Below are positions 35,086 to 42,512 of a DNA stretch of 64,000 bases, in pieces. Positions within the stretch are counted from its first letter, which is position 1. Every line of letters starts with the position of its first letter. The DNA lies in the NCBI RefSeq assembly GCF_022394535.1, contig NZ_CP089414.1, forward strand, positions 4,898,001-4,962,000, written 5' to 3'. Made by a program: the position numbers and the translations under genes. This DNA is from Dyella terrae. Lineage in GTDB: Bacteria; Pseudomonadota; Gammaproteobacteria; Xanthomonadales; Rhodanobacteraceae. Under the pieces are notes generated by a model. The model worked only from the letters and a program-made list of their open reading frames with translations, did not search any database and was not told the DNA's origin.

Positions 35086-36300
35086 TCACCCCATGCGCCT
35101 AACTGCGACCACCGCATTCAACCCGCCAAAAGCAAACGAGTTACTGATCGCCACATCCACCTTCCGCTCCCGCGCCACATTCGGCACATAGTCGAGGTCG
35201 CAGGCTGGATCGGGTTCGAGGTAATTGATCGTGGGCGGCACGATACCGTCATGAATCGCGCCAATGGCCGCCACCAGTTCCAGTGCACCACCAGCGCCGA
35301 GCGCGTGGCCGTGCATCGCCTTGGTGGAGGACACCAGCAGCTCCCGCGCGTGTGCGCCGAACACGCGATGGATGGCACGCGTCTCGGTGCTGTCGTTGGC
35401 TACGGTGCCGGTGCCGTGGGCGTTGATGTAGTCCACGTCTTCCGGTGACAGGGCGCCATCGCGCAGGGCCATGTTCATCGCGGCGGCTGCGCCGACGTCG
35501 GATGGCGCGGCGATATCACCTGCGTCCGAACTCATGCCGGTGCCGACCAGTTCGCAGATGATTTCCGCACCGCGCTTCTGCGCCGATTCGAGTGTTTCGA
35601 TGACGTACATGGCTGCACCTTCGCCCAGCACCAAGCCGCGACGGCCCTTGCTGAAGGGGCGGCAGGTGTCGGGTGCGAGCACACGCATGGCTTCCCATGC
35701 GCGCAGCGTACCTAGCGTGATGCAGGCTTCGGTACCGCCGACCACCGCGGCATCGACCATGCCGGAGCGGATCATCATCGCGGCTTGTGCGAATGCGTGA
35801 TTGGAGGACGCACAGGCACTCGCCACCACGAAGGCAGGGCCGGTGATGCCGTAAACCATGCTCACCTGGCTGGCCGGTGCGTTCATCATCATGCGCACGA
35901 TGCCAAGCGGGTGGAATCGGCCCTGATGTTCACCGTAAAGACGCTCGTAGAGATCGTCGCGTGTCGTTTCGCCACCAACGCCCGTGCCGATGACCACCGC
36001 TGTGCGCGTTCCGGCCTCGCCCTGAAAGCTGATTCCCGATTGGCGAATGGCCTCGTTGGCCGCGATCAGGGCGTACTCGCTGAACGGGTCCAATAGCGTG
36101 CGGCGTGCTTCATCGAAGAAGTTGGCGGGATCGTAATCCGCGACTTCCGCCGCGATGCCGCCGTTACGCAGCTGTCCGGGCTGGATGTGGTGGATCGGGC
36201 CGATGCCGGCCCGGCCTTCGGTCATCGCTTTCCATACGGAAGGCGCGTCGTGGCCGAGCGCGCAGATCGCGCCCATGCCGGTGATCACGATGCGGCGCAT
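35086..36300 (-). CDS. Beta-ketoacyl-ACP synthase II-type enzyme (accessory)
   Basis: A 404-residue thiolase-fold ketosynthase with the complete C-H-H triad: C163 in ASACASSNHA, H295 in NAHGTGT and H332 in KAMHGHALGAGG. The sequence starts RRIVITGMGAICALGHD. It condenses malonyl-ACP with an acyl primer. It is paired only with a dedicated ACP three bases upstream, not with fabD, fabG or acpP as the housekeeping fabF would be. This and the other genes nearby indicate a specialised acyl chain rather than bulk fatty acid synthesis. The gatekeeper region differs somewhat from FabF, but chain-length preference is unknown. Confidence 0.9.
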   Translation of the reverse strand: MRRIVITGMGAICALGHDAPSVWKAMTEGRAGIGPIHHIQPGQLRNGGIAAEVADYDPANFFDEARRTLLDPFSEYALIAANEAIRQSGISFQGEAGTRTAVVIGTGVGGETTRDDLYERLYGEHQGRFHPLGIVRMMMNAPASQVSMVYGITGPAFVVASACASSNHAFAQAAMMIRSGMVDAAVVGGTEACITLGTLRAWEAMRVLAPDTCRPFSKGRRGLVLGEGAAMYVIETLESAQKRGAEIICELVGTGMSSDAGDIAAPSDVGAAAAMNMALRDGALSPEDVDYINAHGTGTVANDSTETRAIHRVFGAHARELLVSSTKAMHGHALGAGGALELVAAIGAIHDGIVPPTINYLEPDPACDLDYVPNVARERKVDVAISNSFAFGGLNAVVAVRRMG

Positions 36301-36303
36301 GAG

Positions 36304-36555
36304 TTATTCGCTGGCCTTCTGGGCAACCTGACGCTCGATGGCTTCGACGAGCTGGCCGACGGTACCGTTATCGAAGTCGGTGTCTTCGTTGGGCAGGTTG
36401 ATGTTGAAGTGCTCTTCGATGTCGAAGATCACTTCGATGGCGTCCAGGGAAGCGATGCCCAGATCCTTCAGGGTGGACTCCGGCTTGATCGTGTCGAGCT
36501 CGATCTTGGCCTGCTTGGCGATGATGTCGAAGGTTTCCTGCTGAACATTGCTCAT
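36304..36555 (-). CDS. Dedicated acyl carrier protein
   Basis: An 83-residue acidic ACP. The phosphopantetheine Ser is S36 in GIASLDAIEV; the residue before it is Ala rather than the near-universal Asp of DSL. The helix II EVIFDIEEHFN and the acidic DTDFDNGTVGQL region are typical of ACPs. The ATG at 36555 gives the usual start; seven earlier in-frame codons are non-conserved. It stands first in a two-gene minus operon with the ketosynthase (three bases between) and divergent to the FemAB-like gene, sharing a 234-base promoter region with a small palindrome. Confidence 0.9.
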   Translation of the reverse strand: MSNVQQETFDIIAKQAKIELDTIKPESTLKDLGIASLDAIEVIFDIEEHFNINLPNEDTDFDNGTVGQLVEAIERQVAQKASE

Positions 36556-36612
36556 GTTTGCTTTCCTGATTCCCATAGCGCCGGGTCACGTGGCATCCCC
36601 CCCGGATACCAT

Positions 36613-36641
36613 TACCCAAGCCTGACGAACCGTCAGGACAA
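36613..36641 (-). promoter_or_regulatory. Candidate promoter and operator for the ACP-ketosynthase operon
   Basis: On minus, TTGTCC (36636-36641) could be a -35 with a poor -10 about 17-19 bases on (TGGGTA/GGTAAT). Between them lies cctgacg-aac-cgtcagg (36621-36637), a 7-bp inverted repeat, a plausible repressor site. The promoter hexamers are weak matches, so this is tentative. Confidence 0.4.
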
Positions 36642-36789
36642 AGTCCAGAACGCTACCTCACAAAGCAGCACGTTCCATGCTCCCCCTGGTGCCTTTCACC
36701 AGTCTTTTCGGTGGCAAAAGCCTCGCTGACCGTGCTTGGGTGGGGTGGGGCGTCGTATCCTATGGCCTTGTGACTCGTGGGACTGTCGC

Positions 36790-37848
36790 GTGCGGTACCT
36801 CAATCAGCTCGAGCCGGACGCACTGGTGGCCCGGTTCGACGAACATCCACCTATCGATTTCAGTGTCATGCGGGTCGCGGATACGCCGGCCTTCGTCGCG
36901 CCGTTTGATCTCTTGACTACCGCCGACGATGACGTACGGAAAAAGCTGACGGGGGCTCCAGGCTATCGCTGGTGGGGTCGCTTGTTGCGCTGGCGTACGG
37001 CGTTTGTGGGGACTACGGTGTCCGAGTACGCGCTGTTTCCCCGCGATGCGCAGCCTGACGTATTGGCCAAAGCCTTGCGCGAGCAACTGGGCCGCCGCCA
37101 GCGGCTGATGATCGTGAAAGACGTTCCGCAGGCATCCCCTCTGTTTGACCGTGCCACCAACGATTGGTGCGCACAGTTCATGGAGGCCTGTGATTCGAAC
37201 GGTTTTGTGCTGCTCGAAGGACAGGCACTGGCCTATGTCCCGATCGATTTTCAGAGCGAAGACGAATACCTCGCGCGCCTGTCGTCCGGCCGGCGCAAGG
37301 ACATTCGCCGCAAGTTGCGCAAGCGTGACGACGTGGCAGTGGAAGCCATCCGTTGTGGCGACGCTGTATTCGATGACGATGCCGTCATTGATGCCTACTA
37401 CGCGCTTTATGAGAACGTCTTCGCACAAAGCGAGATCCACTTCGACAAACTCAGTCGCGACTTTTTCGCCGCCGTGCTGCGCGACGTGTCGAACGGCGGC
37501 GTGGTGTTCGTGTATCGCCACGAGGGCGTGATGATCGGCTGGAACCTCTGCTTTGTGGTGGAAGGCAAGTTGATCGATAAATACGTGGGCTTTGCCTATC
37601 CGCAGGCACGCGAGCAAAACCTCTACTTCACCAGCTGGTTCCACAACCTGGCATTCGCGCGTGAACAAGGGCTGACGCATTACGTGGCGGGCTGGACCGA
37701 TCCGCAGATCAAGTCGTATCTGGGCGCACAATTCACCCTGACGCGGCACGCGATCTATCTGCGCAATCCGCTGTTGCGAGCAGCCGCGCGCAAGTTGGGC
37801 AAATTCTTCGAGAGCGACAGCCAATGGGCAGCGAATGAACAGGCGTGA
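36790..37848 (+). CDS. FemAB/GNAT-like acyltransferase-fold protein
   Basis: A 352-residue protein resembling the BioF2/FemAB-like group of GNAT-fold transferases (peptidogalycan recognition type). Features include LMIVKDVPQASPLFD, the basic stretch LSSGRRKDIRRKLRKRDD (about 175-192), YYALYENVFAQSEIHFDKLSRDFF and the late block GGVVFVYRHEGVMIGWNLCFVV, typical of the second GNAT domain. Such proteins transfer acyl or aminoacyl groups. The start is uncertain: GTG 36790 is given, with non-ATG starts possible earlier (36736). It overlaps the arginase-like gene by 14 bases, so the two are probably translated together. Confidence 0.75.
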   Translation: MRYLNQLEPDALVARFDEHPPIDFSVMRVADTPAFVAPFDLLTTADDDVRKKLTGAPGYRWWGRLLRWRTAFVGTTVSEYALFPRDAQPDVLAKALREQLGRRQRLMIVKDVPQASPLFDRATNDWCAQFMEACDSNGFVLLEGQALAYVPIDFQSEDEYLARLSSGRRKDIRRKLRKRDDVAVEAIRCGDAVFDDDAVIDAYYALYENVFAQSEIHFDKLSRDFFAAVLRDVSNGGVVFVYRHEGVMIGWNLCFVVEGKLIDKYVGFAYPQAREQNLYFTSWFHNLAFAREQGLTHYVAGWTDPQIKSYLGAQFTLTRHAIYLRNPLLRAAARKLGKFFESDSQWAANEQA

Positions 37849-38710
37849 ACCGCTGATTCTGGATTTCGACGGCTCGGTCGGCCCGATCCCGGGTGCGACG
37901 GAGATCGCGTTGTCCGACTGGCAAGAGGCCATCCGCTTCGGCTGCACGGTGCGCACGTTCAATCGTCTGCGTGACTACCTCGATCGGACGCTGCCGGAAA
38001 ACTACGGCACGGTGTTGATGGGGTCGGGTGATTACCACCACCTGACATGGCCGTTGGTGCAGCGTCAGCGTGCTCGTGGCCCATTCCAATTGGTGGTGTT
38101 CGACAACCATCCCGACAACATGCGTTTTCCGTGGGGCATCCACTGTGGATCGTGGGTTCGCCGCGTGGCCATGTTGCCGTTCGTGACCCACGTGCACGTG
38201 GTGGGCATCACTTCGGGCGACATCAGCGCTAAGCACGCGTGGGAGAACTACCTGCGTCCACTTCAAGCGGGCAAGCTCACCTACTGGTGCATGGATGTGG
38301 ACGTGGATTGGGCGGCGAAGCTGGGGCTGAGTGATGCTTTCCGTCGTTTCGACGATCCTGACGCGCTCACCTGCGCGTTTGTGCAGCAATTGAAACAAGC
38401 GCCGCAGCCGACGTACCTATCTATCGACAAGGATGCTTTCAGCGTCGATACCGCGCGCACCAATTGGGATCAAGGGCGCCTGGAAGAGTCGCATGCCATG
38501 GCCATCATCGATGCTCTGCGAGGCCGCATTGTGGCGAGTGACATCAACGGCGAGGTGTCGGCGTACCGGTACCGCGCTTGGTGGAAGCGTCTGCTGAGTG
38601 GCATGGACGGGCAGGAGCCTGTGCCACAGAGCGAACTGGATGCATGGCAGGCGCAGCAGCGATCATTCAACACGCGCCTGCTGGCGGCCATTGCCGAAAG
38701 CAGCGTGTAA
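37835..38710 (+). CDS. Arginase-fold (ureohydrolase-like) protein
   Basis: A 291-residue protein with the pattern of the binuclear manganese centre of arginases: SGDYHH (H68 or H69), FDNHPDN (D90, H92, D94) and LSIDKDAF (D198, D200), matching GDH, DAHxD and SxDxD of the family. It is otherwise distant from arginase, agmatinase and formiminoglutamase, with its own blocks GIHCGSW and YWCMDVDVDW. It is probably a hydrolase of an amidino or amide bond, or a deacetylase-like enzyme. It overlaps the FemAB-like gene by 14 bases. Function in the cluster is unknown. Confidence 0.82.
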   Translation: MNRREPLILDFDGSVGPIPGATEIALSDWQEAIRFGCTVRTFNRLRDYLDRTLPENYGTVLMGSGDYHHLTWPLVQRQRARGPFQLVVFDNHPDNMRFPWGIHCGSWVRRVAMLPFVTHVHVVGITSGDISAKHAWENYLRPLQAGKLTYWCMDVDVDWAAKLGLSDAFRRFDDPDALTCAFVQQLKQAPQPTYLSIDKDAFSVDTARTNWDQGRLEESHAMAIIDALRGRIVASDINGEVSAYRYRAWWKRLLSGMDGQEPVPQSELDAWQAQQRSFNTRLLAAIAESSV

Positions 38711-38817
38711 CCGAGGGCGTTGACCATCGTCCCTGCCGGTAGTCGCGTGGTTGCCGGCCAGGACAGGTGATTTGCAGGCGTGTCGAGAGCCGGCTTGTTC
38801 CGGCGTTATCCGAAGCG

Positions 38818-39642
38818 ATGCCACCCATGACCGAACACTTTCCCGCCAGTCGCCGTGCACTCGTGTATCTCGCCATGGCCTTCGGCATTACCTGGGTGGC
38901 ATGGGGCATCCTGGTCGTGCTCGCCCAGCGGCAGTTCACGAGCTATGGCGCATGGCCCTACATGACGTTGTACGTGTTGGGTGGATTGGGGCCGACCATC
39001 GCCGCCTACCTGGCCGTGTGGCGCACGCCGGAACAGGCGCCGGTGCGTGAGTTCAATCAGCGCCTGTTGCGCTGGCGCGTGCGTCCCGTGTGGTATCTGC
39101 TGGCGCTGGGCCTGCCCCTTGCATTGGGCTTCATCGCCATCGGCGTCGCGGTGGCGCTGAAGCCTGCGCTGGGAGCCTCGGTCGATATCAAGTCGTGGTA
39201 TCTGTTTCCGCAGTACCTGCTGATGACCATCATTGGTGGTGGACTCGAAGAATTCGGCTGGCGTGGTGTCACGCAAGAGGAATGGGGGCGAGTCATCGGC
39301 CCTACGCGTGCAGCGCTGCTGATTGGACCGATTTGGGCGCTATGGCATCTGCCATTGTTCTTCCTGCCCGGTGTGGTTCAGTACCACGCGAGCTTCGAGC
39401 TGTTCCTGGTGGGCATCATGGGTAATGCGCTGCTGTTGGGCTGGCTCTACAGCCGCACGCGCAGCATTCTGCTGTGCGTGCTCATGCACGCGGCAATCAA
39501 TGCGGTGCTGATGATGGGCATAAACGTGCCGACGGGCATGGGTATGGGCCTGGTGGGGCCGTGCCTGAGCCTTTGCGTTGGCGCCCTGTTGTTCCTGTCG
39601 ATGGGACGGCGATCGGAGCAGCAAGAGACCGCCGCGCGCTGA
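38818..39642 (+). CDS. CPBP-family intramembrane protease (Abi/CAAX type)
   Basis: A 274-residue membrane protein with about eight hydrophobic segments. The family's catalytic motifs are present: EEFGWRG (the EExxxR motif), then WHLPLFF and HAAINAV with the metal-binding His residues. Bacterial CPBP proteins process peptides or, as MroQ/Abi types, act in maturation of secreted peptides; many have unknown substrates. The start ATG 38818 is followed by a second Met at 38827. It is on the same strand as the FemAB-like and arginase-like genes, about 107 bases further on, and may belong to the same transcript. Confidence 0.85.
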   Translation: MPPMTEHFPASRRALVYLAMAFGITWVAWGILVVLAQRQFTSYGAWPYMTLYVLGGLGPTIAAYLAVWRTPEQAPVREFNQRLLRWRVRPVWYLLALGLPLALGFIAIGVAVALKPALGASVDIKSWYLFPQYLLMTIIGGGLEEFGWRGVTQEEWGRVIGPTRAALLIGPIWALWHLPLFFLPGVVQYHASFELFLVGIMGNALLLGWLYSRTRSILLCVLMHAAINAVLMMGINVPTGMGMGLVGPCLSLCVGALLFLSMGRRSEQQETAAR

Positions 39643-39651
39643 GCGTGGTCG

Positions 39652-40902
39652 TCAGGTTGCTGCGGCGCGCTCCAGCGTCGTGCAGATCGACTCGAACGTC
39701 GTCTCATCCAGCCACGGGCTGTTGGTGATAGTGAGGGACCGCGCAGCGAAGCTGCGCGCATTCGGCAGTGGCGTATCGGCGACGATCTCGCGCAGATAGC
39801 CGTAGTCGGGCAGGGCATGGATAAACAGGCGGCTGACGCCGAGTCCGGCTGTCCACAGCGTTTCCAGCGCGGCATCGCGCCTTGCCTCGTCCCGCAGCGT
39901 AAGCAGCAGGAATGGCCACACACCCTGCAGGCCGGGCCTGTCGTCGAACACGGTGATGCCGGGAATCCGGCGCAGGCGTTCCACGCGGCGTAGCGCCTGC
40001 GCCCGTGTTGCGTCGAGGAAGGCTGGCAAACGCGGCAACGCACGTGCGCCGACGGCCTGTCGCCATCCACTCACCGTATGCAGCGGAATATCCGGGCCGA
40101 AATCATCGCCGACGGCAGCGACAGGATCGTTCTCTGCCAGCGCCTTACGCAGTGGGCGTCCATAGGCGAGCGACAGCAGCGATGGGCGATAGGCCAGCGT
40201 GTAGCCGATCAGCTCCAGCGCGCGTTGCCAGTCCATCTTCGCATCAGAGTGGATAGTGGCGTCATGGCTGGCGGCGAACGCATCGCGCAACACCGGGTCG
40301 CGCGTCAGCAGCAGGCCGCCCTCGAACAGCGTGAGGCCTTTGCCCACGGCGAGACTGAAGAAACCGGCGTCCCCGAGCAGGCCGACGGTGTGTTCGCCGT
40401 GCTTAGCACCAAGCGCCTGGGCGGCGTCTTCCAGTACGTAGGCGCCCATGCGATGTGCAACGTCGAGCGCTGCGTTTACGTCGGCCACCCGGCCCGCGAG
40501 ATGCGTCGGTACGATGGCCAGCGTGCGTGGCCCTGCCAGGGTGCAGAGCTGGACGAAGTCCATGTCGAAATGATCGGTAGCGAGATCGCACAAGCGAAGC
40601 TTGAGTCCCGCGCGATGGATGGCAAGTGCCACCAGCGGACAGGTCCACGCGGGAACGATCACTTCGTCGCGTTGCGGTCGCAGGCGATGCATCGCGCGCA
40701 ACGCCACCACCATGGCGGCGGTGCCGGAGCATTCGAGTTGCAGATGATCCACACCGAGCCAGTCGGCGACACGTTCGGCGAACGGCGCGCGGCCGGGCCA
40801 GAGGTCGGTCAGGCGCAGCGGCAGTCCGGCAGTGGGCGGCAGCTCGCGCACGTCATTTCCCGGCAGCGACGCCCAGCGCACCCTTGGCTTCGGTCGGTGC
40901 AT
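39652..40902 (-). CDS. DegT/DnrJ/EryC1/StrS-family PLP aminotransferase
   Basis: A 416-residue fold-type I aminotransferase of the sugar-aminotransferase family. The PLP lysine is K188 in LAVGKGLTLFEGG, and the cofactor-binding Asp is D159 in EDAAQALGA; the ECSGTAAMVVALRA phosphate-binding block lies near 57-70. Members transaminate nucleotide-linked keto-sugars, but some act on other ketones. The start is uncertain: the ATG used overlaps the upstream membrane-protein gene by 50 bases, while a GTG at 40851 would begin two bases past that stop with GGGA upstream. It is the last gene of a four-gene minus operon. Confidence 0.88.
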   Translation of the reverse strand: MHRPKPRVRWASLPGNDVRELPPTAGLPLRLTDLWPGRAPFAERVADWLGVDHLQLECSGTAAMVVALRAMHRLRPQRDEVIVPAWTCPLVALAIHRAGLKLRLCDLATDHFDMDFVQLCTLAGPRTLAIVPTHLAGRVADVNAALDVAHRMGAYVLEDAAQALGAKHGEHTVGLLGDAGFFSLAVGKGLTLFEGGLLLTRDPVLRDAFAASHDATIHSDAKMDWQRALELIGYTLAYRPSLLSLAYGRPLRKALAENDPVAAVGDDFGPDIPLHTVSGWRQAVGARALPRLPAFLDATRAQALRRVERLRRIPGITVFDDRPGLQGVWPFLLLTLRDEARRDAALETLWTAGLGVSRLFIHALPDYGYLREIVADTPLPNARSFAARSLTITNSPWLDETTFESICTTLERAAAT

Positions 40903-41296
40903 CGCCTTCCGGATGCGCACCGCTCTCCGCGAAGGCCAGGCAGATGATGCCCGCCACGATGGTGGCCGCCCCGAGTACACGCGGCAAGGTCAGCGGCTCA
41001 TGGAACAGCCACACGGAGAACAGCATTACGCTCACCACTTCCAGATGGGTCACGGCGAATGCGGGACCGATCGGCGCGTGCTTGAGCAGCGTCATCCAAG
41101 TGAAGAAGTTGCCGACGTAGCCGATCACCGCGACGTAGATCCACGGATGGCCGAACACGCGCACGATCCACGCCCAGTTTGCTTCGGGCGGAAAGGCATG
41201 GTCGCCGGCGTACTTAAAGCTGAGCTGCACGAGCGTGTCGAACAGCACCAGGATGGTGAAGCCGATGGCGTAGAAACGGACAAGACTCTTCGTCAT
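40853..41296 (-). CDS. Small EamA/SMR-like membrane protein, second of a pair
   Basis: A 147-residue protein with four membrane segments and the motif LVQLSFKYAG near residue 25, typical of EamA/SMR half-size transporters such as ArnE/ArnF and EmrE. The C-terminal tail (AHPEGDAPTEAKGALGVAAGK) is soluble and polar. It starts one base after the stop codon of the related 121-residue gene. Two adjacent half-size proteins of this type usually form a heterodimer that flips or exports a lipid-linked or amphipathic substrate. It may work on the product of the neighbouring enzymes. Confidence 0.85.
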   Translation of the reverse strand: MTKSLVRFYAIGFTILVLFDTLVQLSFKYAGDHAFPPEANWAWIVRVFGHPWIYVAVIGYVGNFFTWMTLLKHAPIGPAFAVTHLEVVSVMLFSVWLFHEPLTLPRVLGAATIVAGIICLAFAESGAHPEGDAPTEAKGALGVAAGK

Positions 41297-41297
41297 T

Positions 41298-41663
41298 TCA
41301 GCCGCCCCCCGCCACGCCGACAATGCATACACCCGCTGTCACCAACAGGATGCCGGTCACGCGCAACGGCGTCAGCTTCTCTTTGAACAGGATGCGTCCT
41401 GCGATCATGACCACCACGATGTTGATCGAGCCCAGCAGCACGCCTTCCGACAGATCGACCAGCGACAGGAAGGCGATCCACACCAGGAACTCGGCGACGT
41501 ACGAGAACACGCCGATCCAGATCCACGGCCGTGCGGCCATGTACTTCCAGCGGGCGAGACCGTCACCGGCACGCGGATCGCCGGCCGCTGCCTTGAAAGA
41601 CAGCTGGCCGACGGTGTCGAGCGTGACGTTGAGCAGCCACAACGCAATCACCAAAGGACTCAT
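41298..41663 (-). CDS. Small EamA/SMR-like membrane protein, first of a pair
   Basis: A 121-residue protein with four membrane segments and the motif TVGQLSFKAAAG near residue 16, clearly related to the next gene downstream and to ArnE/ArnF-type half transporters. It has LSEGVLLGSINIVVVMIAGRILFKEKLTPLRV, a typical EamA C-terminal half. It lies nine bases after the hydrolase stop and one base before the second small membrane gene, so the two are co-translated in a fixed ratio. I expect a heterodimer. Confidence 0.86.
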   Translation of the reverse strand: MSPLVIALWLLNVTLDTVGQLSFKAAAGDPRAGDGLARWKYMAARPWIWIGVFSYVAEFLVWIAFLSLVDLSEGVLLGSINIVVVMIAGRILFKEKLTPLRVTGILLVTAGVCIVGVAGGG

Positions 41664-41672
41664 GGCGAGTCC

Positions 41673-42512
41673 TCAGGCCGCAGCGCGGGCGGCGGGTTCG
41701 TAGGTGGCGGCAATCTGGCGGAAGAATTCCGCCGAACGATCAGTCAGTAGGCGACGTTCCCGATCCACCGTGATCATGTGGTAGCTGTCCTTCAGCCACA
41801 GTGTTTCCACCGGGCCAGACACCGATCGCTGCACGAGGTAAGCGTTCTCGATGCTGGCGATATCGTCCTCGGTCGCATGGGCGATCAGGCAGGGCGCGGT
41901 CACCTTGGGCAGCTCGCGCTTCACCACGGCGGCCATGTTGTACATCTCAGCCAGCGACGGCCACGGGTTGCCGGGCAGGCCGGCTGCGGCGCTGTCGCCG
42001 CTCAGCATGGCGCCGCTGATCTGCGCGCGCAGGCGCTCGTCGCGGATGCCGTACGGTTCCTCCTCGTGCACCATGCGGTGCTTGCCGATGCCGAGCTTGT
42101 GCAGCATCGGCAGCAGGAACGAGAACTTGCCGAACCACGGAATCGCCCAGCCGTCATAGCGGAAGGTGGCGCCATACACGCCCACGCCCTTCACCCATTC
42201 CGGGCGCTCGGCGGCGAGCTTGAGCGCCAGCACGGCACCCATGGACAGGCCGGCCACGAACAGGTGGTCCACCTCGTGGCGGTACTTCTCCGCCGCGGCT
42301 TCCACGCTGGCGTACCAGTCTTCCCAGCCTGTTTTCAGCAGATCGTCGACGTCGCCGCAGTGACCCGCGAGCTGCATGCCGTAGACCGAATAGCCGGCAC
42401 GGTTAAGCCCCTTGCCGAGGAGACGCATCTCCGTCGGGGTGCCCGTCAGGCCGTGAATGAGCAGCACGCCGCTGCGACCGCCTTCGTAGCGGAACTCAAC
42501 ATTCTGAATCAC
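41673..42512 (-). CDS. Alpha/beta hydrolase, carboxylesterase/thioesterase type
   Basis: A 279-residue alpha/beta-hydrolase resembling monoacylglycerol lipase and Est30-type carboxylesterases. The triad is S90 in the nucleophile elbow GLSMGA, D216/D217 in ATEDDIAS and H245 in SYHMITVD; the oxyanion region is LLIHGLTGTP. It starts at GTG 42512 with GGAG upstream. It opens the minus-strand operon hydrolase-EamA-EamA-aminotransferase with gaps of nine, one and about zero bases. In an ACP-based pathway it could release the acyl product as a thioesterase or remove a protecting ester; this is inference. Confidence 0.9.
   Translation of the reverse strand: MIQNVEFRYEGGRSGVLLIHGLTGTPTEMRLLGKGLNRAGYSVYGMQLAGHCGDVDDLLKTGWEDWYASVEAAAEKYRHEVDHLFVAGLSMGAVLALKLAAERPEWVKGVGVYGATFRYDGWAIPWFGKFSFLLPMLHKLGIGKHRMVHEEEPYGIRDERLRAQISGAMLSGDSAAAGLPGNPWPSLAEMYNMAAVVKRELPKVTAPCLIAHATEDDIASIENAYLVQRSVSGPVETLWLKDSYHMITVDRERRLLTDRSAEFFRQIAATYEPAARAAA

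Follow-up and report, generated by a model that had tools for sequence, protein, structure and literature searches.

A nine-gene cluster and its second locus

The stretch of DNA studied here, referred to as the window, covers 64,000 nucleotides (positions 4898001-4962000) of the single contig, G000:C1, that forms the 5.36 Mb genome of Dyella terrae. In an initial annotation made from the window alone, nine genes arranged in three tight units were described as a cluster combining a ketosynthase (KS) and an acyl carrier protein (ACP) with a transferase, an arginase-fold protein, a membrane protein, an aminotransferase, two transporters and a hydrolase. This observation is confirmed, and the nine open reading frames (ORFs) are all present at the places given, with the families as named (window positions; PLP, pyridoxal phosphate):

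35086..36300, minus strand: KS, FabF-type ketosynthase, predicted accessory (PF00109/PF02801)
36304..36555, minus strand: ACP, dedicated acyl carrier protein (PF00550)
36790..37848, plus strand: FEM, dupli-GNAT transferase, FemAB/GNAT, GTG start (PF13480, partial PF04339)
37835..38710, plus strand: ARG, ureohydrolase (arginase) fold (PF00491)
38767..39642, plus strand: CPBP/Rce1-like membrane protein (PF02517)
39652..~40902, minus strand: DegT, DegT/DnrJ/EryC1/StrS-type PLP aminotransferase, start uncertain, ORF open to 40980 (PF01041)
40853..~41296, minus strand: EamB, half-size DMT/EamA transporter, weakly ArnF-like (PF00892)
41298..41663, minus strand: EamA, half-size DMT/EamA transporter, presumed partner of EamB (PF00892)
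41673..42512, minus strand: HYD, alpha/beta hydrolase of the monoacylglycerol-lipase/carboxylesterase type (PF12146)

The spacings are also as described: gaps of 3 bases between KS and ACP, 9 between HYD and EamA and 1 between EamA and EamB, and an overlap of 14 bases between FEM and ARG.

The cluster is half of a two-locus system. The other half, an AT3/HAD/pump/RR-HK locus, contains eight genes in the order RR-HK, AT3-HAD, OEP-FtsX-ABC-MFP and extends over G000:C1:2083204-2094657 (L106:5204-16657):

2083204-2083893, plus strand: RR, response regulator
2083890-2085356, plus strand: HK, histidine kinase
2087990-2089399, minus strand: AT3, class III PLP enzyme, 78% identical to Comamonas AT3
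2089450-2090187, minus strand: HAD phosphatase
2090478 to about 2094657, plus strand: OEP (outer-membrane efflux protein), then FtsX, ABC and MFP (membrane fusion protein)

These genes were matched both by tblastn (53-79% identity) and by hidden Markov models (HMMs) to their counterparts in the Rhodanobacter-type locus L030 described below; for the pump genes, Pfam matches in relatives were also used. The MFP, ABC ATPase, FtsX-type permease and OEP are thus encoded together at the second locus, as in MacAB-TolC-type exporters. A stretch of about 2.6 kb separates HK from AT3.

Along the contig, AT3 and ARG are 2.85 Mb apart. Both are present in 20/20 genomes of the genus, on one contig in 8 of them and on different contigs in the other 12; where both lie on one contig, the distance is 153-156 kb in four genomes (G398, G403, G405, G407) and 2.0-2.85 Mb in four (G000, G400, G402, G416). 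Among the 19 other genomes of the genus, seven further AT3 loci and three further ARG loci were fetched, and they carried, respectively, all eight second-locus genes (7/7) and all nine window genes (3/3). The retention of both unlinked halves across the genus argues for a joint function, although most genes are in any case common to such closely related species.

Conservation of the gene set among related loci

Relatives of ARG were collected from GTDB species genomes, and the best 80 of the 547 confirmed ones were used for the counts. These 80 loci are mostly from Rhodanobacteraceae and are related rather than independent samples, and ARG is present in all of them by construction. Six-frame ORFs of at least 60 residues were scored with HMMs at bit cut-offs that we chose; as these HMMs derive from loci identical to or overlapping with those counted, models and counts are not independent. 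Other gene calls on the loci were crude, with spurious antisense ORFs in the high-GC DNA, and the counts rest on the HMM scan. One recurrent family, x443, appears to consist of antisense ORFs opposite the pump genes.

FEM and ARG were found in 80 loci each, DegT in 65, ACP, EamB and EamA in 62 each, KS in 61 and HYD in 59; then came AT3 (48), HAD (45), FtsX (34), MFP (33), OEP (33), ABC (32), HK (20), RR (17), CPBP (10) and a cyclopropane-fatty-acid (CFA) synthase (2). KS, ACP, FEM, ARG, DegT, EamB, EamA and HYD were all present in 50/80 loci and in 40 of the 59 full-length ones, some of the locus contigs ending inside the gene set. In 21/80 loci, all ten biosynthetic genes (these eight with HAD and AT3) were accompanied by MFP, ABC, FtsX and OEP within at most 21 kb. 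The Rhodanobacter-type order (L030) is HAD, AT3, KS, ACP, FEM, ARG, DegT, EamB, EamA, HYD, MFP, ABC, FtsX, OEP, HK, RR, and the whole run from HAD to RR takes about 15 kb.

The orientation of the units varies: ACP-KS stands forward before FEM in L024 and L025, and HYD precedes FEM in L022 and L031. Since the genes stay together while the unit orientations vary, linkage is kept despite shuffling. The three units, which had been claimed to belong together, are therefore not usually far apart, and Xanthomonas sacchari keeps all three in the same order and orientation. Eight of the nine genes originally grouped are conserved together. The ninth, CPBP, occurs in 10/80 loci, all of them Dyella loci (L007-L021); it was rejected as a member of the pathway and, judging from this distribution, is probably a lineage-specific insert. 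Near the cluster, the window also carries a phosphodiester glycosidase gene (NAGPA, PF09992; 31871-32722, minus strand), which is not among the recurrent families.

Distribution beyond the genus

The set was then considered in 398 Pseudomonadota genomes, that of D. terrae included (cut-offs: ARG E<=1e-20, AT3 E<=1e-120, FEM E<=1e-15, DegT E<=1e-60). ARG was detected in 16 genomes, AT3 in 25, FEM in 24 and DegT in 10. AT3 and FEM were present in 16/16 ARG genomes, and the 10 DegT genomes all fall within the ARG genomes. AT3 is well conserved, ten homologues from Rhizobium to Xanthomonas being 70-84% identical to the D. terrae copy, and it is the gene before FEM in Comamonas, Snodgrassella and Pigmentiphaga. 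The ARG proteins of X. sacchari, Bartonella, Rhizobium, Roseomonas and Agrobacterium are, respectively, 54%, 50%, 30%, 29% and 27% identical to that of the window; among the matches listed, its closest named relatives are from Dyella (best 96%).

Several copies are found in plasmid records. That of X. sacchari carries HAD, AT3, KS, ACP, GNAT, arginase, DegT, EamA, EamA, hydrolase, HlyD and ABC genes, and that of Rhizobium acidisoli a regulator, kinase, HAD, AT3, arginase, EamA, desaturase, hydrolase, GNAT, EamA and cyclopropane synthase. The Agrobacterium record shows a divergent regulator and kinase, followed by HAD, AT3, arginase, EamA, hydrolase, GNAT, EamA, TolC and ABC genes. In the Roseomonas record, DegT and an EamA-type pair stand with a class III enzyme, HAD, arginase-like protein, hydrolase, GNAT, kinase and sigma-54-type regulator; this class III enzyme differs from AT3 (22% identity). 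Comamonas testosteroni and Snodgrassella keep five to six of the genes linked, and in Comamonas a cyclopropane synthase lies between ARG and DegT. Two draft genomes, distant and from another class, carry the single runs ACP-KS-HAD-AT3-HYD (L116) and HYD-AT3-HAD-KS-ACP (L112), which led us to reject the idea that KS and ACP are unique to Lysobacterales; the runs suggest instead that the pathway has KS/ACP as an option that is older or more widespread.

Some neighbours of these loci deserve mention. In Pigmentiphaga-type loci (L033:10833-18838, with matching parts in L037, L043, L047 and L049), two large minus-strand genes, presumably cyanophycin synthetases from the look of their translations, lie between FEM-ARG and DegT-EamB-EamA, together in L033 with an ABC transporter and a DUF1854 gene. 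The cyanophycin link was set aside, and the two genes are treated as neighbours, such genes not being seen in the other groups examined. On the Bartonella plasmid (L107:12443-14965), the AT3-GNAT-arginase run is followed by a DltB-like MBOAT gene and by a gene for a 373-residue protein that matches no NCBIfam model. In a genome of another family (G147; L119:9064-12430), FEM-like, EamA-like and distant class III PLP genes are adjacent and are perhaps a distant version of the system.

Properties of the encoded proteins

KS scored 438.7 bits against the fabF model TIGR03150, under the cut-off of 493.75, and passed the broader subfamily model NF005589 (417.1 bits, cut-off 387). Another KS of the genome, at 5.33 Mb, scored 654.6 bits with TIGR03150 and adjoins another ACP gene (G000:C1:5328836-5329039), the latter judged by PF00550 and by its fabF-type neighbour rather than by a dedicated family model. 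Because this KS beside an ACP passes the fabF cut-off and that of the window does not, the window KS is classified by its scores as an accessory enzyme and not the housekeeping FabF, in agreement with the dedicated KS proposed originally. The Cys-His-His triad C163/H295/H332, located by alignment to FabF 1j3n, is kept in 68/68 aligned rows, and Ser36 of ACP in 69/69. Elsewhere in the genome, a multi-carrier-domain megasynthase region (G000:C1:1095530-1107003) has open frames, 2068 and 2220 residues long, that match ketosynthase and PP-binding domains.

FEM, which is directly upstream of ARG in 80/80 loci, has 352 residues, and its structure model (mean pLDDT 90.5) contains two GNAT domains in one chain with a fold nearest to the aminoacyl-tRNA-dependent dupli-GNAT class. 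The best structural neighbours are aminoacyl-tRNA-dependent peptide synthases, MprF and FemX, at 11-17% identity (Sba18/Sbb17 16-17%, FemX 11%). The FemAB/GNAT family assigned initially stands, with the correction that the model is nearest in fold to the aminoacyl-tRNA-dependent transferases. An excerpt of PMC12945691 gives FemX Lys305 and DhpH-C Lys329 as the catalytic lysine of the class; K308, a candidate for its equivalent, is invariant in 27/27 FEM proteins. Sequence searches gave little: the FEM profile found nothing useful among PDB sequences (best E 0.2), the single sequence gave one weak match (9wqy, E 0.026), and no PF09924 (LPG_synthase_C) match was obtained at E<=0.001 in a Pfam search. 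PF04339 (FemAB_like, DUF482) matched at 45.7 bits (cut-off 27), and only over profile positions 146-341 of 369; the genome has a full-length PF04339 paralogue (G000:C1:976177-977277, L133; 466 bits), 26% identical to FEM over 183 columns. FEM probably forms an amide or ester bond.

In ARG, the motifs GSGD-HH, DNHPD and DKD, which we take to correspond to the metal ligands of arginase, are invariant in 26/26 aligned proteins. The model resembles agmatinase and guanidinopropionase (Foldseek top match 7lox_C, TM 0.57/0.58, root-mean-square deviation 5.2, E 1.8e-8). Both the fold and the binuclear metal-ligand motifs (H, D-x-H-x-D, D-x-D) place the protein in the ureohydrolase superfamily, outside the agmatinase equivalog (TIGR01230, 19.4 bits against a cut-off of 174.3).

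As to the substrate class of AT3, its NCBIfam matches (Comamonas, Pigmentiphaga and Snodgrassella proteins) and PDB matches (Comamonas) range over racemases, GABA aminotransferases and ornithine aminotransferases; of the 25 models listed for each protein, not one reached its cut-off. DegT has perosamine synthetase, ArnB and 3-amino-5-hydroxybenzoate (AHBA) synthase as PDB relatives, and its GKGL..EGG motif is invariant in 17/17 aligned proteins. EamB is 34% identical to EamA over 112 columns. The Arn equivalog models scored far under their cut-offs: 75.8 bits for ArnB (cut-off 631), 25.0 and 22.2 for ArnE (92), and 33.8 and 24.9 for ArnF (99). HYD is related to the monoacylglycerol lipase 5xks and to LipS 4fbm, and its catalytic residues S90 and H245 are kept in 81/82 and 82/82 aligned rows.

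Proposed pathway

The chemistry proposed below is inferred from the gene sets, their conservation and co-occurrence, the intact catalytic residues and the folds. The reading that we favour, with a little more than even confidence, is a two-locus pathway for a cationic acyl-containing amino compound (an aminolipid or small lipopeptide-like molecule) that crosses the inner membrane and is exported to the outer membrane or the medium under two-component control. KS and ACP would build or extend an acyl chain, AT3 and/or DegT would aminate a keto or aldehyde intermediate, and HAD would remove a phosphate from a precursor. A class III enzyme carries out the beta-transamination of a ketoacyl-ACP in mycosubtilin synthase. 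FEM would then form an ester or amide linkage to an amino acid or acyl group, an amino acid delivered by aminoacyl-tRNA being the likeliest; ARG could take urea off a guanidino group (e.g. arginyl to ornithyl) and leave a free amine, and HYD might cleave an ester or thioester. The product would be flipped by the EamA/EamB pair and exported by MFP-ABC-FtsX-OEP, RR-HK controlling expression. The EamA pair, presented initially as the exporter, is retained as a putative flippase, and not as the sole export route, a TolC-type pump being probably also used. As regards the amino-lipid suggested there, a lipid-like product is favoured because desaturase and cyclopropane-synthase genes lie in the clusters of relatives (Rhizobium; Comamonas).

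We infer that arginyl transfer followed by deguanidination would be the most economical scheme using ARG and FEM together. If the conversion to ornithyl does occur in place, an ornithylated lipid would be made without ornithyl-tRNA. Carried to its end, and as a rather speculative proposal, this would define an undescribed class of cationic lipid spread over Alpha-, Beta- and Gammaproteobacteria, in which an ACP-borne amino-acyl chain receives a tRNA-derived arginyl group that the ureohydrolase turns into ornithyl, the EamA heterodimer flips the lipid and a sensor-controlled TolC-type pump exports it.

A number of observations weigh against the proposed pathway, in addition to the derivation of the conservation counts from related loci. 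Partial sets exist: L027 and L032 have FEM and ARG only, the Bartonella plasmid has AT3, GNAT and an arginase-like gene only, and L115 has AT3, EamB, EamA, HYD, HAD and pump genes with FEM, ARG and DegT not nearby. DegT was not detected in 6/16 ARG genomes, and 9/25 AT3 genomes and 8/24 FEM genomes are without ARG at the cut-off; in six genomes with AT3 and FEM but without ARG, the two genes are on different contigs and FEM is a distant match. KS/ACP were not near FEM-ARG in the Comamonas, Pigmentiphaga, Snodgrassella, genus-g6, Pseudomonas-like, Rhizobium and Agrobacterium loci examined; in these the role would fall to housekeeping KS/ACP, unless building the chain is not a central part of the pathway. 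Kinase and regulator families differ by lineage (2CSK_N kinase in L094, NtrC-type regulator in L097 and L100, sigma-54-type in L111), for which reason the control genes may have been acquired separately in different lineages. As to the proteins, the identity of FEM to its fold neighbours is low, dupli-GNATs also include acetyl- and acyltransferases, FEM is weakly related to DUF482, and the closest solved relatives of AT3 (Comamonas) include racemases.

No paper describing the set was found among the PubMed Central papers licensed CC0, CC BY or CC BY-SA; the system is apparently undescribed, as the initial annotation had stated. The genes, up to 16 in number, form a coherent set for which we found neither a name nor an assigned product. 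If the product is a cationic envelope lipid, the set would represent a route beside MprF and Arn for changing the surface charge of Gram-negative bacteria; if the product is secreted, the biosynthetic type would be new. The division over two loci also means that reading one neighbourhood alone misses such systems. On the whole, the interpretation given originally was right in kind and is partly supported.

Alternative explanations

Instead of an envelope lipid, the product could be a secreted natural product such as an amphiphilic antibiotic or signal, with the TolC-type pump secreting a soluble lipo-amine or lipopeptide. The pump genes share a locus with all ten biosynthetic genes in 21/80 loci, natural-product enzymes are among the best fold neighbours of FEM, and the distribution is patchy (ARG in 16/398 genomes) with plasmid-borne copies. 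On the other hand, presence in 20/20 genomes of the genus would be unusual for a niche antibiotic, the EamA pair and the lipid-modifying genes point to membranes, and several lineages have kinase/regulator genes next to the cluster, as in envelope-stress systems. We consider this possible, though not probable.

Somewhat less probable is that FEM acts as an N-acyltransferase like bacterial ceramide synthase (bCerS) and that the pathway, with a class III PLP enzyme in the place of serine palmitoyltransferase, yields a ceramide-like, doubly acylated aminolipid. FEM does match PF04339, of which we assume bCerS to be a member, above the cut-off, and KS/ACP, desaturase and cyclopropane-synthase genes are neighbours; yet that match is partial, the genome has a separate full-length PF04339 protein, and the ureohydrolase has no role in the scheme. 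According to an excerpt of PMC11087976, bCerS is likewise a cytoplasmic acyltransferase, and the products of bacterial ceramide synthesis reach the outer membrane.

An Arn-like route, with a nucleotide sugar as the substrate of DegT and a lipid-linked amino sugar, flipped by the EamA pair, decorating lipid A or the envelope, is compatible with the resemblance of DegT to perosamine synthetase and ArnB and with the weak ArnE/ArnF matches of the transporters. It is nevertheless quite unlikely: no glycosyltransferase or nucleotide-sugar enzyme, for which no model search was made, is among the typed families of the 18 recurring in at least three lineage groups (all but two of the 18 were typed and had a Pfam match), and DegT is missing from the detected genes of the six ARG genomes mentioned above. 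That three small operons stand side by side by accident, as three transcription units on two strands might suggest, has a negligible probability and is already contradicted by the conservation data, the units being rearranged yet linked in many Rhodanobacteraceae and X. sacchari, and partly in C. testosteroni and Snodgrassella, with co-occurrence of the genes across the 398 genomes.

Comparison with known systems

The proposed two-locus pathway shares elements with several known systems. In MprF (lysyl-phosphatidylglycerol synthase), an integral-membrane flippase is fused to PF09924, whereas FEM is a stand-alone protein of 352 residues and is surrounded by additional PLP enzymes, a ureohydrolase, KS/ACP and a pump. 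As an ordinary MprF-type protein is encoded elsewhere in the genome (PF09924, 336 bits), the proposed system would be an additional route. From the streptothricin-type aminoacyl-tRNA-dependent peptide synthases (Sba18/Sbb17) and from FemX, FEM differs by its low identity and its gene surroundings. The Arn pathway likewise has a DegT aminotransferase and two half-size DMT transporters, but ArnA-, ArnC-, ArnD- and ArnT-like enzymes, for which no model search was made, are not among the typed recurrent neighbours. With the bacterial sphingolipid (ceramide) pathway, the system has in common an ACP, a GNAT-type transferase, a PLP enzyme and possible outer-membrane transport; its PLP enzymes are instead of class III and of the DegT type, and serine palmitoyltransferase is not among the typed recurrent neighbours. 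Finally, as in MacAB-TolC-type exporters, an MFP (HlyD_3), an ABC ATPase, an FtsX/MacB-like permease and an OEP are encoded, here in one locus with biosynthetic genes, and, unlike in MacAB-TolC, the permease and the ATPase are separate genes.

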